Shown in pieces: positions 42,073-57,389 of a DNA stretch of 64,000 nt (position 1 is the first letter of the stretch; every line of letters begins with the position of its first letter). The stretch is from Bacillus niameyensis (lineage in GTDB: Bacteria; Bacillota; Bacilli; Bacillales; Bacillaceae_C): positions 3,941,586-4,005,585 of the forward strand of contig NZ_LN831197.1 in assembly GCF_001375535.1 (NCBI RefSeq), read 5' to 3'. The notes beneath the pieces are model-generated. The model was not told the DNA's origin. It saw only the letters and a program-made list of their open reading frames with translations, and did not search any database. Both the position numbers and the translations under genes were made by a program.

Positions 42073-42691
42073 TTTAACCCCAAAGTCAGTAGCTGACAAC
42101 AAAAAGTAAATTTGCTAAAAAATGTAGCATTGATTTTTTCCAGAATAAAGAGTACTATAAATATACAAGCTACGTTGCTCGTAACTTTAATTAAGTTTTT
42201 CACCTAGTTAGAATTTAGGGAGTTTTACATTGAAACTGAAATGACAAATCTCTGTCTATAAGACATGGAGGACAGGCAGGAAGGTTTCTGCAAACACCCA
42301 CTTTAAAAAAGTGGTGTTTAAAACTTCATTAAGCAAGATACGGCAAATGTGGCTTCTAAACAAGTCAATCAAACCAGTCTCTTTACGGGGCTGGTTTTTT
42401 ACTTTTCTAAGAGAAACATTGATAGAACCGATACTGATTGCCTATTGAATATTACAATTATTCTATATATTATTCTATTTAGAATAGTCGAGAATCTAGC
42501 AAATAGTCGTTTCTGTATTCGTAATATTACTAAGTGTAACACCGGCTAGCTTCAGCCATTACATAGTCTATCCATCAAGATATGTCGGATTTTATTTAGA
42601 AAGAAAGGAGAATGCGATGGAGAGAACGTCGTTTTTTATTTTTACACATGATACTTAGTTAAGTAATATCAAATAATAAGGAGTTGCTTTA
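42073..42691. other. 619-bp intergenic region with hairpins, a terminator and a possible 13-codon leader frame
   Basis: A perfect hairpin AACACCCACTTT/AAAGTGGTGTT lies near 42294-42320. An intrinsic terminator AAACCAG...CTGGTTTTTT is at 42371-42400, and TATTCT-ATTT-AGAATA lies near 42472-42487. At 42617 an ATG with AAAGGAG 6 bp upstream opens a 13-codon frame (MERTSFFIFTHDT) that stops at 42658, 34 bp before the next gene. The upstream hairpin plus terminator could be a riboswitch-like leader, but I recognise no known class. The 66-codon frame at 42349-42549 runs through the terminator and is not credible. Confidence 0.4.
42371..42400 (+). terminator. Intrinsic terminator between the second lipoprotein gene and the secreted hydrolase gene
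   Basis: AAACCAG and CTGGTTT enclose CTCTTTACGGGG-type loop sequence and are followed by a T run. Confidence 0.7.
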
Positions 42692-45903: not shown

Positions 45904-48213
45904 ATGGAAGAAAACATTTTTATAGACAAGGTACAGGATTTTTTACAGGAAGAAGCTAAGCCGCTGACCGTTAATGATATTGAACAAGCACTTGAAATTG
46001 AGGATGCAGAGGATTTTAAAAACCTGGTAAAAGCTCTTGTCCAAATGGAAGAACAAGGGTTAGTAGTTCGAACGAGAAGTAATCGTTACGGACTCCCTGA
46101 AAAAATGAATTTGGTGCGCGGAACGTTATCAGGACATGCGAAGGGGTTTGCATTTTTAATACCAGAGGATTCAAACCTTGATGATGTCTTCATCCCTCCT
46201 CATGAAAAAAATAGTGCTATGCACGGTGATCAAGTTTTAGTTAGAGTTTCTTCTGAGAGTAGCGGTTCTAGGAGAGAGGGCGCAGTTGTAAGAATTCTGA
46301 AGCGTGGATCACAAAAAATGGTGGGCACCTATTCAGAAAGTAAATATTTCGGTTTTGTTATTCCAGATGATAAAAAAATAGCAGATGATATTTTTATTCC
46401 TAAAAATAAAAGTATGGGTGCTATTGATGGGCATAAAGTTATTGTGAAAATTACGACATTCCCAGAAGATCGAAAAAATGCGGAAGGGGAAGTTGTAGAA
46501 ATTCTCGGTCATAAAAATGACCCAGGAATCGATATATTATCGGTTATTCATCAACATGATTTACCGCTTGCTTTCCCTGAGGAAGTCATGACAGAGGCGA
46601 ATCAAATTCCGGAGATAGTGGATGAAAGTGATTTTCCAAACCGGCGTGATTTGCGCGGGGAAACGATTGTAACGATTGATGGAGCAGATGCGAAAGATCT
46701 AGATGATGCAGTAACATTGACCAAACTTGAAAATGGTAACTATAAATTAGGCGTTCATATTGCGGATGTTACCTTTTATGTTGAAGAAGGTTCTGCAATA
46801 GATCGTGAAGCTTTTGAACGTGGGACAAGCGTTTATTTGGTTGATCGTGTTATTCCAATGATTCCTCACCGCTTGTCGAATGGAATCTGCTCGCTTAATC
46901 CTCAGGTTGATCGTTTTACGATTTCGTGTGAGATGGAAGTGAATCGTCAGGGAGAAGTTGTTAATCATGAAATTTTCCCAGGGTTAATTAAAACGACAGA
47001 AAGAATGACGTATGAAGCAGTAAATAAGATCCTTATTGACAAGGACGAAGAATTACGCAAAAAATATGATCCGCTAGTTCCGATGTTTGAGTTGATGGAA
47101 GAACTGCAAGGAATTCTCCAATCGAAGCGAATGAAACGTGGAGCTATTGATTTTGATTTTAAGGAAGCAAAAGTTTTAGTAGATGAAGACGGCAAGCCGA
47201 CTGATGTTGTCATTCGAGAGCGTTCTATAGGAGAGCGGATTATTGAAGAATTCATGCTTCTAGCGAATGAAACGATTGCGGAACACTTCCATTGGTTGGA
47301 TGTTCCATTTATTTATCGAATTCACGAAGATCCGAAGGCGGAAAAGCTACAAAGATTTTTTGAGTTCATTACAAACTTTGGATTAATTGTTCATGGTACA
47401 GCGAATTCCGTACATCCGCGTGCTTTACAAGAAATATTGGAAGCGATTCAAGGAAAACCGGAAGAAATGGTTATTTCAACGGTTATGCTAAGATCTATGC
47501 AACAGGCGAAATACGATCCAGAAAGTCTTGGTCACTTTGGGTTGTCCACAAAGTTTTACACGCACTTTACGTCACCGATTCGCCGTTATCCAGATTTAAT
47601 TGTTCATCGTTTAATTCGTACGTATTTATTCCAAGGAAAATTGGATGAAACAACGCGGGTGAAATGGGATACTCAACTTCCCGAAATTGCCGATCACTCA
47701 TCAAAAAGAGAACGTCGTGCGGTTGACGCTGAACGTGATACAGATGAAATGAAGAAAGCTGAATATATGGAAGACAAAATTGGGGAAGAGTTTGACGGTA
47801 TCGTAAGTTCGGTCACAAACTTTGGTATATTTGTGGAACTGCCAAATACGATTGAAGGTCTTGTCCATGTTAGTTATATGACTGATGATTATTATCACTA
47901 TGATGAACGTCAATTTTCGATGATTGGCGAGAGAACAGGAAATGTTTATCGAATTGGTGATGAAATAACGGTTCGTGTTATTAAAGTCAACAAAGATGAA
48001 CATGACATCGATTTCGAAATCGTTGGTATGAAAAATAACCGACAAGAAAAGCGTGAAGATCCGAAGCCAAAAGTAGTTAAACTGAAAAAGAGCAAATCAA
48101 AGGGACCTCAAGGCTTTGAAGAAAGTGGAGAATGGTCAACAAAACCCCCAAGGAAGAAAAAGAAAAAAACATATCGAAATCAAAGTACGAAACCAGGAAA
48201 GAAGCGTCGTTAA
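45904..48213 (+). CDS. rnr: Ribonuclease R
   Basis: 3'-5' exoribonuclease that degrades structured RNA and, with SmpB-tmRNA, mRNAs from stalled ribosomes. The 769-residue protein has an N-terminal winged helix, two cold-shock domains, the RNB catalytic domain ([14 protein letters not shown] carries the metal aspartates; [14 protein letters not shown]), an S1 domain near residues 630-710 and a lysine-rich tail. The ATG follows GGAGGAGGG. Clustering with smpB and ssrA reflects a shared ribosome-rescue role. Confidence 0.96.
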
Positions 48214-48383: not shown

Positions 48384-48851
48384 ATGCCAAAAGGGGAAGG
48401 AAAACTAATCGCCCAGAATAAAAAAGCGCGGCATGATTATTCGATTGAAGAAACATATGAAGCAGGAATGGTTTTGCAAGGAACGGAAATTAAATCGATA
48501 CGAGCCGGACGCATCAATCTAAAAGATTCTTTTGCACGGATCCACAATGGAGAACTATTCTTGCACAATGTTCATATTAGTCCGTATGAACAAGGGAACC
48601 GTTATAACCATGACCCCTTACGTACGAGGAAACTATTACTTCATCGTAAAGAAATCAGTAAACTAATCGGAGAATCCAAAGAAGCAGGCTACTCCATTAT
48701 TCCGTTAAAAGTTTATATTAAAAACGGATACGCAAAAGTTTTAATTGGGCTTGCTAAAGGGAAAAAGAAATATGATAAGCGAGAAGATTTAAAACGGAAA
48801 GAAGCGAAACGTGATATTGAAAGAGCATTTCGTGAACGACAGAAAATGTGA
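48384..48851 (+). CDS. smpB: SsrA-binding protein SmpB
   Basis: 155-residue tmRNA partner that delivers charged tmRNA to stalled ribosomes. The oligonucleotide-binding barrel has [19 protein letters not shown] and [14 protein letters not shown], and the basic C-terminal tail ([15 protein letters not shown]) occupies the empty mRNA channel. The start follows GGGGAGAG. In most bacilli ssrA follows directly; here about 2.7 kb with a sugar module has come between them. Confidence 0.96.
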
Positions 48852-49862: not shown

Positions 49863-49882
49863 TTAATGTGGAGGGCAAAAGT

Positions 49883-50080
49883 ATGCGGAATATAAGAATT
49901 GGTGTGACAGGAGTAGGGAAAATTGGTAAAACACATCTTGAATTATATTCAAAAATCGAAGGAGCAGAAATTGTTGCCATTTGTGATGTAAATGAACAGG
50001 AAGCTAAAAAGGTTGAAAATCATAGAAATATCCAAGTCTACAGCCGCAATGATATAAAAATTGGGCGTGACCACCATTAG
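49883..50080 (+). pseudogene. Truncated Gfo/Idh/MocA-family oxidoreductase
   Basis: Only the first 60 or so residues of a NAD-binding oxidoreductase remain: GVTGVGKIGKTHLELYSK and AEIVAICDVNEQEAKKV form the first Rossmann beta-alpha-beta unit. Intact members have about 330-390 residues with a CEKP motif, which is absent here in all frames downstream. The homology ends near 50060, where a perfect 10-bp hairpin begins, and the MFS gene starts 22 bp after the stop. The ATG 49883 has GGAGGG in front. This looks like an internal or 3' deletion, not a frameshift. Confidence 0.7.
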
Positions 50081-51530: not shown

Positions 51531-52176
51531 GGGGACGTTACGGATTCGACAGGGATAGGTCGAGCTTAGGTTGCGAGTCGAGGGGATCGGCCTCGTAAAA
51601 ACGTCAAAGCCAATAATAACTGGCAAAGAAAACAACAACTTCGCACTAGCTGCCTAATTAAGGCCTAATGCGGTTCCTCCCTCCATCGCCCATGTGGTAG
51701 GGTAAGGGACTCACTCTTAGTGGGATACGCCGGAAGTCCTCCGCCTGGGGACCAAGGAAGAGACTAATCAGGCTAGCGTTTCGGATGCCTGTCGATAGGC
51801 GGAAGAAGTCGCGAAATAATAATATATCGACTACACTCGTAGACGCTTAAGTGCCGATATTTCTGGACGTGGGTTCGATTAGTTAATAGTCGCCTTATGT
51901 GGTAACACATAAGTGAAAATTCGGCTTGATCGGTGAAACCTAAGTCGTGAAAATCACGATAAGGCAACCCCGAGCGGTATGTGGAGCAATCCAACAGCCG
52001 TGTATCGACTTATAGGCTGCCATCAAAGGGTAGTACTAGGATGTGAAAAGCTGTCTTTGAATAAGGTAAATCTATTTTTCACATAATACGCCGAGGGACC
52101 TGGTTATAAATCAGGTTCAAGATATAGTCAGTGCCATGACGAAAGCATGGAAATGCACGTCCCACCGTCTCCACCA
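51531..52176 (+). ncRNA. ssrA: Transfer-messenger RNA interrupted by a group I intron
   Basis: Ribosome-rescue RNA that acts with SmpB. Exon 1 (51531-51879) starts GGGGACGTTACGGATTCGAC, and exon 2 (52160-52176) ends CCGTCTCCACCA. Spliced, they pair GGGGACG with CGTCTCC and form a complete T arm GTGGG-TTCGATT-CCCAC. The resume segment at 51622-51657 encodes GKENNNFALAA and stop, so the tag would be A-GKENNNFALAA. The mature RNA would be 366 nt. A 280-nt insert splits the T loop after TTCGAT, so tRNA-like folding needs splicing. Exon boundaries were set by the U-G rule at the 5' site and a terminal G at the 3' site. Confidence 0.95.
51880..52159 (+). mobile_element. ORF-less group I intron in the tmRNA T loop
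   Basis: The 280-nt insert shows the group I plan. P1: exon CGAU pairs with GUCG (51889-51892), leaving a U-G pair at the splice site. P2: CTTATGT/ACATAAG. P3: TTCGGC with GCCGAG. A P5-type hairpin is TCGTG/CACGA. Q-like AAGGCAACCCCGAGC is followed by R-like GTGTATCGACTTA and S-like AAGATATAGTC, giving P7 GACT/AGTC. P7.2: ATGTGAAAA/TTTTCACAT (perfect). P8: CCTG...CAGG. P9: CCATG/CATGG, ending in G. A P7.1/P7.2 extension points to subgroup IA, as in phage introns. No reading frame lies inside, so it depends on an external endonuclease for homing. Confidence 0.88.
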
Positions 52177-52198
52177 AATACATAATTTGGTGGTTTTT
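52171..52198 (+). terminator. ssrA terminator built on the tmRNA 3' end
   Basis: CCACCAAAT, which includes the tmRNA CCA end, pairs with ATTTGGTGG over 9 bp and is followed by TTTTT. Confidence 0.85.
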
Positions 52199-52209: not shown

Positions 52210-52635
52210 TTAAAATTGGAAAAACTCTTCCTCAAATAGTAATTTCCTTTTTAGACTTTCTGCATTGTATTTTCCATTTCTTGGAGTAACCTTCTCATAA
52301 TTATTTATAATATGAAGTGCGCGCATTCTTTTCTGATCTACCCTTAGGTAAGGGGAAATTTTCCTTAATATAATGAGTACGCATTCCTTATTTTTTATAC
52401 TTAAAGTATAGGAATCTTTATGTTTTTCAGGGTTATAGTTCTTTTTAGTAATAATATATCCATTTGTTAAAGTTTGAATGTATTTTAGAAGTTCAATATC
52501 TGTTGAAGAAATGGTGATACAAGGTCTTCGATGTTCCCCTTCATGCATTCTTGTTAAAGTAACTGATCCTTCACCATCAACAATACCCGCTAAATAAGCG
52601 GACTCCCAATCTTTTATTTTAATTCCTCCAATCAT
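52210..52635 (-). CDS. LAGLIDADG homing endonuclease, single motif, convergent with ssrA
   Basis: Site-specific DNA endonuclease of the single-motif (homodimeric) LAGLIDADG class. The motif is AYLAGIVDGEGSV with the catalytic acidic residue in DGEG. It ends 12 bp beyond the ssrA terminator on the opposite strand, outside the intron, so it is free-standing. I give ATG 52635 as start, yielding 141 residues. However, GGAGG at 52629-52625 lies inside this frame and is ideally placed for an ATA codon at 52617, where relatives normally begin (M)KDWE. A longer in-frame ATG is at 52704. Expression is therefore uncertain. The likely target is the intron-less ssrA T-loop sequence. Confidence 0.85.
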   Translation of the reverse strand: MIGGIKIKDWESAYLAGIVDGEGSVTLTRMHEGEHRRPCITISSTDIELLKYIQTLTNGYIITKKNYNPEKHKDSYTLSIKNKECVLIILRKISPYLRVDQKRMRALHIINNYEKVTPRNGKYNAESLKRKLLFEEEFFQF

Positions 52636-52704
52636 ACAAATAATAGTTTCTGAGGGAATGTGTGTTCTTATTTTGATTATAATATTAAATAGATTATTAA
52701 GCAA

Positions 52705-53030
52705 CTCTATAAAAATGTAGAAGTAAAATTCATAGGACTATATATGATTATGTCGAGATGCAAAATTTTTAAACAGTGGCATAGCAGGCTCAACCCTTAG
52801 AAGGCTTTAATCACAGTGTTTTTTATTAATGGACTTGCTGAAAGTAACTCTGTCTCCACCTCTATTGAAGATAACGAACAAGTTAGGTTGAACGGTCATT
52901 CACACAAGAAGATGCTTCAAAGGTGAAAAGGCGCAATTATAAATCCTGATGATAATAAAATCTCAAGGAAGCATCAAAAACTGCAGCAAATTTCATGCTT
53001 CCCGAATACCTGTACATCGTTCCATTGTTC
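52705..53030. other. 326-bp non-coding region between the endonuclease and transporter genes
   Basis: No credible gene is seen. CTGTCTCCACCT at 52850-52861 matches the tmRNA 3' end (CCGTCTCCACCA, 52165-52176) at 10 of 12 positions in direct orientation. GATGCTTC and GAAGCATC near 52912 and 52968 form an inverted repeat. Confidence 0.4.
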
Positions 53031-57074: not shown

Positions 57075-57163
57075 GAGTATGTAATAGAATAGGTTTTCAA
57101 GGGTGGTCAGCACCATTCCATTGTCCCTGTCTCGGTCAATTTGAGATGGAGGGAGATGCTGTT

Positions 57164-57250
57164 ATGATGACTGTATTCGAGGGGTTAATGCTTGCAATCG
57201 CTTTTTCAAGTTTAATCCTGGCAATCCTGTCATTTAACCATAAGAAATAA
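57164..57250 (+). CDS. Putative holin-like toxin peptide (type I toxin-antitoxin)
   Basis: 28-residue peptide beginning MMTVFEGLMLAIAF and ending SFNHKK: a short polar start, one hydrophobic helix and a basic tail. This is the pattern of the small putative holin-like toxins (Hol_Tox) common in bacilli and lactobacilli. The start has GGAGGG 10 bp upstream. The transcript has a long, hairpin-forming leader (GGTGGTCAGCACC near 57100) that may hide the ribosome site, as in known type I toxins. Inverted repeats and an antisense region follow at the 3' end. Such peptides insert in the membrane and are silenced by a convergent antisense RNA. Confidence 0.68.
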   Translation: MMTVFEGLMLAIAFSSLILAILSFNHKK

Positions 57251-57389
57251 TCCGCCCTTGAGCCTAGCAAGCGATGGGCGGATTATCCGCAAATTGCTGA
57301 TCGCCTTTAAAGCGATTCTATTACTGACCGTTCGGCGTTCCAGCGCCGTACGGTCGTTTTTAATATATTCCATTTTCATATTTATTATA
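57236..57389 (-). ncRNA. Candidate antisense RNA to the holin-like toxin mRNA
   Basis: On the reverse strand TATAAT (57389-57384) could start a transcript near 57375. It would copy the 57326-57355 hairpin in antisense and end at the AATAATCCGCCC/GGGCGGATTAT stem (57247-57286), overlapping the toxin stop. The -35 is weak, and the end has few U residues. The arrangement matches known type I modules, but the RNA itself is inferred. Confidence 0.35.
57326..57360 (+). terminator. Intrinsic terminator of the toxin mRNA
   Basis: GACCGT and CGGCG pair with CGCCG and ACGGTC around TTCCAG and are followed by GTTTTT. It may also form the recognition loop for the antisense RNA. Confidence 0.8.

Follow-up and report, generated by a model that had tools for sequence, protein, structure and literature searches.

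Group I introns in the T loop of tmRNA genes were reportedly the subject of earlier work by Williams in 2002. I-MsoI and I-CreI are single-motif LAGLIDADG enzymes that act as homodimers; their genes lie within introns of the 23S rRNA of algal chloroplasts. A 2025 survey, in the portion of its text drawn on here, counts 883 intron-form tmRNA sequences from 21 phyla, with an endonuclease in 36 of the 883, and places the 23 endonucleases of its founding set either in P7.1 (19) or after P9 (four) (PMC11915505). Since T-loop tmRNA introns are published, the intron of the window (the whole 64,000 nt stretch of Bacillus niameyensis DNA that was analysed) is not new by itself, and the first-pass annotation had rightly remarked that the class is an old one. 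The examples of collaborative homing in the cited excerpts come from phages (PMC3984707, PMC10448857, PMC4227781, PMC6083498, PMC6279837, PMC2814812, PMC12724721, PMC2988022); the passages that name the term in those papers contain no case on a bacterial chromosome. In one of these systems, that of F-CphI, the intron has been shown to block self-cleavage (PMC6083498, in part).

In the window, the T loop of ssrA (51531-52176), the tmRNA gene, is interrupted after TTCGAT by a 280 nt insert at 51880-52159, and mature ssrA corresponds to 51531-51879 plus 52160-52176 (349 + 17 = 366 nt; Table 1). When the insert is excised in silico, ARAGORN recognizes a 366 nt tmRNA in the joined exons, with the tag GKENNNFALAA and a complete acceptor stem, as expected of the intron form of tmRNA. 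ARAGORN detects no tmRNA in the whole window, nor in the unjoined ssrA stretch, and the Rfam tmRNA model RF00023 matches this ssrA at 161 bits in an alignment that leaves out both the acceptor stem and the T arm's 3' half. Each of 16 genomes of the genus has one listed match above the tmRNA gathering score, which here is the split ssrA. The stem and T run directly 3' of the gene look like its terminator. Upstream, the interval between smpB and ssrA holds three other frames. The tag ends in FALAA in the window, and in FALAAA in two intron-bearing members of the genus (L006, L007); FAFAA is the ending in nine more members examined, four with the intron and five without.

Table 1. Features in and around the split ssrA gene, with positions in the window
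Feature	Position	Strand	Basis or remark
rnr-type gene, RNB domain	45904-48213		Upstream of ssrA
smpB	48384-48851		Upstream of ssrA
ssrA 5' exon: tRNA-like 5' part, tag frame GKENNNFALAA, pseudoknots, T-arm 5' half ending GGGTTCGAT	51531-51879	+	RF00023, 161 bits; ARAGORN on joined exons
P1: 5' exon CGAT and intron TA pairing with TAGTCG, U.G at 5' splice site	51876-51892	+	Identical pairs in 54/54 rows
Group I intron, 280 nt, start TAGTTAATAGTCG, end GCACG	51880-52159	+	RF00028, 44.2 bits, E 1.2e-9; covariation on 54 introns
ssrA 3' exon: T-arm 3' half, acceptor stem, CCA	52160-52176	+	Sequence; ARAGORN on joined exons
Candidate ssrA terminator: stem and T run CCACCAAATACATAATTTGGTGGTTTTT, overlapping CCA end	52171-52198	+	Reading of the sequence alone
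Gene for a free-standing LAGLIDADG homing endonuclease with a single motif, 141 aa when read from ATG at 52635	52210-52635	-	Convergent with ssrA

The insert matches RF00028 (group I intron) at 44.2 bits (E 1.2e-9). As the curated gathering score is 50, it is missing from matches at Rfam's own threshold. Its fold was assessed in a structure alignment of 54 introns, comprising the one in the window and 53 of 63 usable relatives. The helices counted were P1, P2, P3, P4, P5, P5a, P6, P6a, P7, P7.1, P7.2, P8 and P9, named after the group I scheme. Under a structure made by hand, which includes the P3/P7 pseudoknot, 98.5% of cells across the 54 introns are paired (93-100% per helix). Both sides have changed in 28 of 70 pairs, against a shuffle mean of 10.8 (0/500 shuffles reach 28), and pairing falls to 31-39% when the 3' partners are slid. 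Kinship among rows can beat shuffles without any structure, and the structure, having been drawn on the window's own row, is favoured over slid versions; the two controls are therefore read jointly. P3 shows compensatory changes. P1 and P7 are invariant amongst the 54 introns, so that covariation speaks neither for nor against these two helices. The core consists of the P3-P7 pseudoknot with P4-P6 and P8, the U.G pair at the 5' splice site is present in all 54 rows, and the window intron has a terminal G. Judged from these sequence comparisons, the insert at 51880-52159 is a group I intron of a known kind.

The first-pass annotation had read the locus as a tmRNA gene split in its T loop by a group I intron, which RF00028, ARAGORN on the joined exons and covariation amongst the 54 introns bear out. 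Its coordinates and the 280 nt insert after TTCGAT hold in the joined-exon analysis. The normal T arm and acceptor stem that it saw on rejoining the exons are recovered in the 366 nt ARAGORN tmRNA, and the pairings it listed (P1, P2, P3, P7, P7.2, P8 and P9) are all amongst the helices counted. Covariance models, which it had proposed as a check, match both parts, RF00023 the ssrA and RF00028, under its gathering score, the insert. Outside the window, the same genome has two more loci that match a group I intron, at 98.5 and 70.6 bits (L001 and L002, G000:C6:3806606-3808072); their host looks by eye like one flagellin gene.

The classic layout of a mobile intron, with an endonuclease ORF inside, is absent from the window intron; the sole listed frame of at least 60 aa overlapping it (51773-51994, minus strand) continues into the 5' exon. 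Instead, a LAGLIDADG gene lies outside the intron, 33 bp beyond ssrA and after the CCA end at 52176. The longest listed ORF for it begins with a TTG at 52704. NCBIfam gives no match to the protein. In structure alignments its fold is of the I-CreI/I-MsoI type (about 16-22% identity), and it carries the single motif with its acidic residue. The motif residues, 16-18 and 20-23, are unchanged in 56 of 56 aligned copies. The median dN/dS is 0.125 over 11 pairs, with values of 0.25-0.57 in three pairs of distant copies (dS 0.78-0.99); the endonuclease protein is under purifying selection. The annotation had also called the endonuclease arrangement unusual, and a gene outside the intron, antisense and conserved in that arrangement is what was found.

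Within 52610-52640, what follows the GGAGG motif of the endonuclease gene is ATA instead of ATG, and an in-frame ATG precedes the GGAGG; the codon matching ATA in L087 is ATC. Amongst 69 intact-like endonuclease frames, 47 have an ATG in the stretch examined, 18 only GTG or TTG and four none of these. Initiation may possibly be non-standard.

In a set of 100 genomes, including the window's own, a DNA search found the intron in 24 (one a 30-base match); the endonuclease was found in 15. Intron presence is patchy within one genus (7/16 genomes). A survey of the order covered 397 genomes. Intron state was taken from the junction pattern, which was of the intron type in 89 and the intronless type in 282, the unclassified rest being counted as non-intron; G175, added by hand after an RF00028 match, brings the intron-bearing genomes to 90, and G041 has one extra intron-type row away from ssrA. 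The endonuclease profile matches 59 genomes, or 55 once four weak matches (G063, G226, G316 and G197) had been removed before tabulation. Both elements are found in 49 genomes, the endonuclease only in six, the intron only in 41 and neither in 301 (Fisher p 6e-31, a value that overstates independence since the surveyed genomes are related). The endonuclease family is thus present in 49/90 intron-bearing versus 6/307 other genomes. In 41 of the 49 genomes with both, the endonuclease lies at most 2 kb downstream, antisense in every case (41/41); in the other eight it is displaced or on another contig.

A second set consisted of the best 80 of 183 named endonuclease loci and may overlap the genomes of the order survey. 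The ssrA and intron profiles used to search it derive from the window plus 19 relatives of the same order. The 5' part of ssrA was found in 70 of the 80 and the intron in 70, on the same fetched stretch. L135 has ssrA without the intron, and nine loci show no ssrA, four of them at contig ends (L105, L113, L141 and L150), two with TniQ genes between (L087 and L130), and three others (L133, L147 and L149). In the 65 loci with a strong ssrA match the intron is present in 64 and the endonuclease is antisense in all 65, its 3' end at a median of 67 nt (49-624) from the intron end. An intact-like endonuclease frame is found in 54 of the 65, always with the intron (54/54). Of the 15 remaining loci, ten have no ssrA 5' match at the cut-off and five, all clostridial, fall under the score limit. 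A long open frame with the motif is retained in 69 of the 80 fetched copies, in a search that favours the best. An equal layout occurs beyond the order in L139, L142, L144 and L145 (mostly Clostridium, Tissierella or Lutispora), L401 and L402. In the window and in both surveys, then, a free-standing endonuclease adjoins an intron-bearing gene, the layout of collaborative homing. The intron-bearing ssrA and the outside, antisense endonuclease form a conserved pair in the order, and the layout occurs in Clostridia too.

Some candidates were set aside. Phages were considered as carriers, and the best 80 of 210 viral relatives contain no match to the ssrA or intron profiles. Two loci had appeared to combine an intact endonuclease with an intronless ssrA. 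RF00028 finds an intron in one of them, G175 (L259); in the other, L402, the intron profile matches at E 5e-36, though RF00028 missed it at E 10.

Comparison of relatives reveals empty sites. In three syntenic pairs (L029/L385, L240/L382 and L132/L372) both flanks align and the intronless partner is without the intron. It retains 57-67 nt of 3' exon and terminator, and has 19-32 nt in place of an endonuclease block of 390-595 nt. This two-block difference is read as a gain; it could also result from joint loss. The layout is similar in L259/L375, where the intronless genome retains a 57 nt endonuclease trace, while L140/L381, L023/L381 and L100/L294 are less clean pairs. In L029/L385 the ssrA body shows one difference in 348 sites, located in the T stem, and the splice-site base and its 3' partner differ too, so that three changes are clustered at the insertion. 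The T arms are identical within L240/L382 and within L132/L372. More generally, a T stands immediately before the intron in 189 of 189 intron loci (several loci per genome) and at the matching base in 30 of the 79 intronless loci whose T arm could be read; the U.G rule by itself would also yield this T. The T-stem GTGGG is the commonest allele in intronless genes too (63/81 loci), and is therefore weak evidence for co-conversion in general.

Divergence of the two elements is correlated. In partial Mantel tests on 54 loci and the window, endonuclease and intron correlate given smpB (r 0.54; 0/2000 permutations) and given smpB and the ssrA body (r 0.49; 0/1000). Given smpB, the ssrA body in turn correlates with the endonuclease (r 0.35, or 0.28 if the intron is given as well) and with the intron (r 0.24; 10/1000). 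As each of the two follows the ssrA body, plain linkage has a share in these values.

The locus most probably represents a two-part mobile element at chromosomal ssrA, moved by collaborative homing. One part would be the group I intron of the T loop, which has no endonuclease of its own and is predicted to splice itself out and so restore the tRNA-like domain. The other would be the LAGLIDADG gene, of I-CreI/I-MsoI type, which stands apart from the intron and faces ssrA from immediately past its end. The putative cleavage site of the encoded enzyme, presumably acting as a homodimer, would be the T arm of intronless ssrA, where the DNA is nearly palindromic; a resident intron would split that site, and the host copy would thereby be protected. 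Repair of the break from an intron-bearing copy could then carry the intron, 3' exon, terminator and endonuclease gene across in one conversion tract. Against this, no endonuclease is detected in 41 of the 90 genomes with the intron, and the pair is thus often broken. In a set of 81 intronless loci from 80 genomes, a few of them picked for their endonuclease match, endonuclease matches occur in five genomes. Remnants or truncated copies lie beside intronless ssrA in L135, where the motif is missing, and in L043, L294 and L375, the last a match of 57 nt at E 0.002. In G290 a LAGLIDADG frame that is diverged yet uninterrupted lies at a distance of 768 nt from intronless ssrA. Outside the order, interrupted endonuclease remnants adjoin intronless ssrA in L404 and L405.

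These remnants and the one diverged frame would also suit an endonuclease that targets the spacer after ssrA, or the acceptor end, and is the neighbour of an unrelated intron merely through an insertion hotspot. The spacer does take other elements, such as the insertions with TniQ genes, and endonuclease divergence follows the ssrA body too. This reading is nevertheless unlikely, as the intron is present in 49 of 55 endonuclease genomes versus 90 of 397 overall, the correlation between the two persists beyond smpB and the ssrA body, and both blocks are jointly absent from syntenic relatives. Acquisition of both elements long ago, with static inheritance and shared decay without mobility, seems quite improbable: a long open frame with the motif survives in 69 of 80 copies (even if the search favours the best), dN/dS has a median of 0.125, presence is patchy in one genus (7/16 genomes), and one close pair (L029/L385) has its T-arm changes grouped around the insertion. 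The many decayed endonucleases and the intron-only genomes are what such a history would leave behind.

The LAGLIDADG protein might instead, or besides, be a maturase that assists splicing of the intron, to which its gene is linked; one fold match, 1p8k, has a title that names two functions, homing endonuclease and splicing factor for a group I intron. Since 41 of 90 intron-bearing genomes are without the endonuclease, it is not generally needed, and all 56 aligned copies share the same motif residues, which leaves this role very improbable. That the insert is a non-functional intron and the tmRNA dead is scarcely credible: 98.5% of cells pair, compensatory changes are seen at 28 of the 70 pairs, and each of the 16 genus genomes has a single listed match that passes the tmRNA gathering score, here the split one; the RF00028 score under the gathering threshold is the point in its favour.

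Displaced endonucleases are a separate matter. In L087 (3306-4790) and L130 (3429-4928) the stretch from the displaced endonuclease to the expected place of ssrA contains TniQ-family genes (PF06527), and end repeats resembling TATGCTTTACGTCACA suggest Tn7-like elements targeting the 3' side of ssrA. Integrase islands find no support as the cause of displacement in the order's loci, where the repeated transposon-like ends and the TniQ genes of L087 and L130 fit Tn7-like insertion better. No ssrA-end pieces were found in 11 of 12 displaced-endonuclease loci (900 nt on the ssrA side). One such piece, TCTCCACCA, occurs just before the endonuclease 3' end, at a distance of 53 nt, in L149, an ssrA-less locus of a Clostridium MAG; L149 may be an integrase island that entered ssrA, with this piece at its distal end. 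A second copy of the ssrA acceptor end, GTCTCCACC, at 52852-52860 in the window, beyond the endonuclease, was considered as an old ssrA 3' end and is probably due to chance. In L141 (Tissierella praeacuta) a group II intron end (2920-2991; RF00029, 41.3 bits) adjoins the endonuclease on the ssrA side. Elsewhere in the window there are matches to a BsrG-type sRNA (57081-57351; RF01412, 76 bits) and to 6S RNA (42164-42359; RF00013, 54.5 bits), and a 70 aa Gfo/Idh/MocA-like frame at 49868-50080 (PF01408, first 52 of 120 positions) is apparently a truncated oxidoreductase gene.

Beyond this locus, it is probable that the tmRNA introns of Bacillales and Clostridia are moved by chromosomal collaborative homing, with a dedicated antisense LAGLIDADG family cutting in trans and the near-palindromic T arm as the target of the dimer. 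If true, this helps to account for the scarcity of endonucleases in published tmRNA introns. An endonuclease outside the tmRNA unit is invisible to a search confined to the intron, and is present in about half (49/90) of the order's intron-bearing genomes. Collaborative homing, familiar from phages, would be extended to bacterial chromosomes and to the gene of a ribosome-rescue RNA.

The genes of I-MsoI and I-CreI are inside their introns, whereas the gene in the window, whose product aligns with theirs at about 16-22% identity in the structure alignments, is outside. The intron itself resembles the tmRNA introns of PMC11915505, as the excerpted text describes them, in its place in the T loop after TTCGAT, in the U at -1 and in the terminal G; its 280 nt compare with a founding-set mean of 293, and the site is taken to be position 7 of that survey. 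The same excerpts describe endonucleases only inside the intron, and that of the window is outside and antisense. A free-standing endonuclease adjoining an intron-bearing gene is also found in F-CphI and the psbA intron of cyanophage S-PM2 (PMC6083498, in part), but there the setting is a phage, the nuclease of Endo VII type and the host a protein gene, in contrast to a bacterial chromosome, a LAGLIDADG enzyme with predicted cleavage and an RNA gene here. The ICP1 terminase intron likewise has its T5orf172 endonuclease beside and not inside it, according to the part of PMC10448857 cited; this too is a phage system, with a nuclease of a family other than LAGLIDADG. The titles and abstracts found, which cover few subscription papers, describe no outside, antisense endonuclease at an intron-bearing ssrA. 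A group I intron in ssrA is already known; its pairing with an adjacent antisense LAGLIDADG gene on bacterial chromosomes appears to be new.
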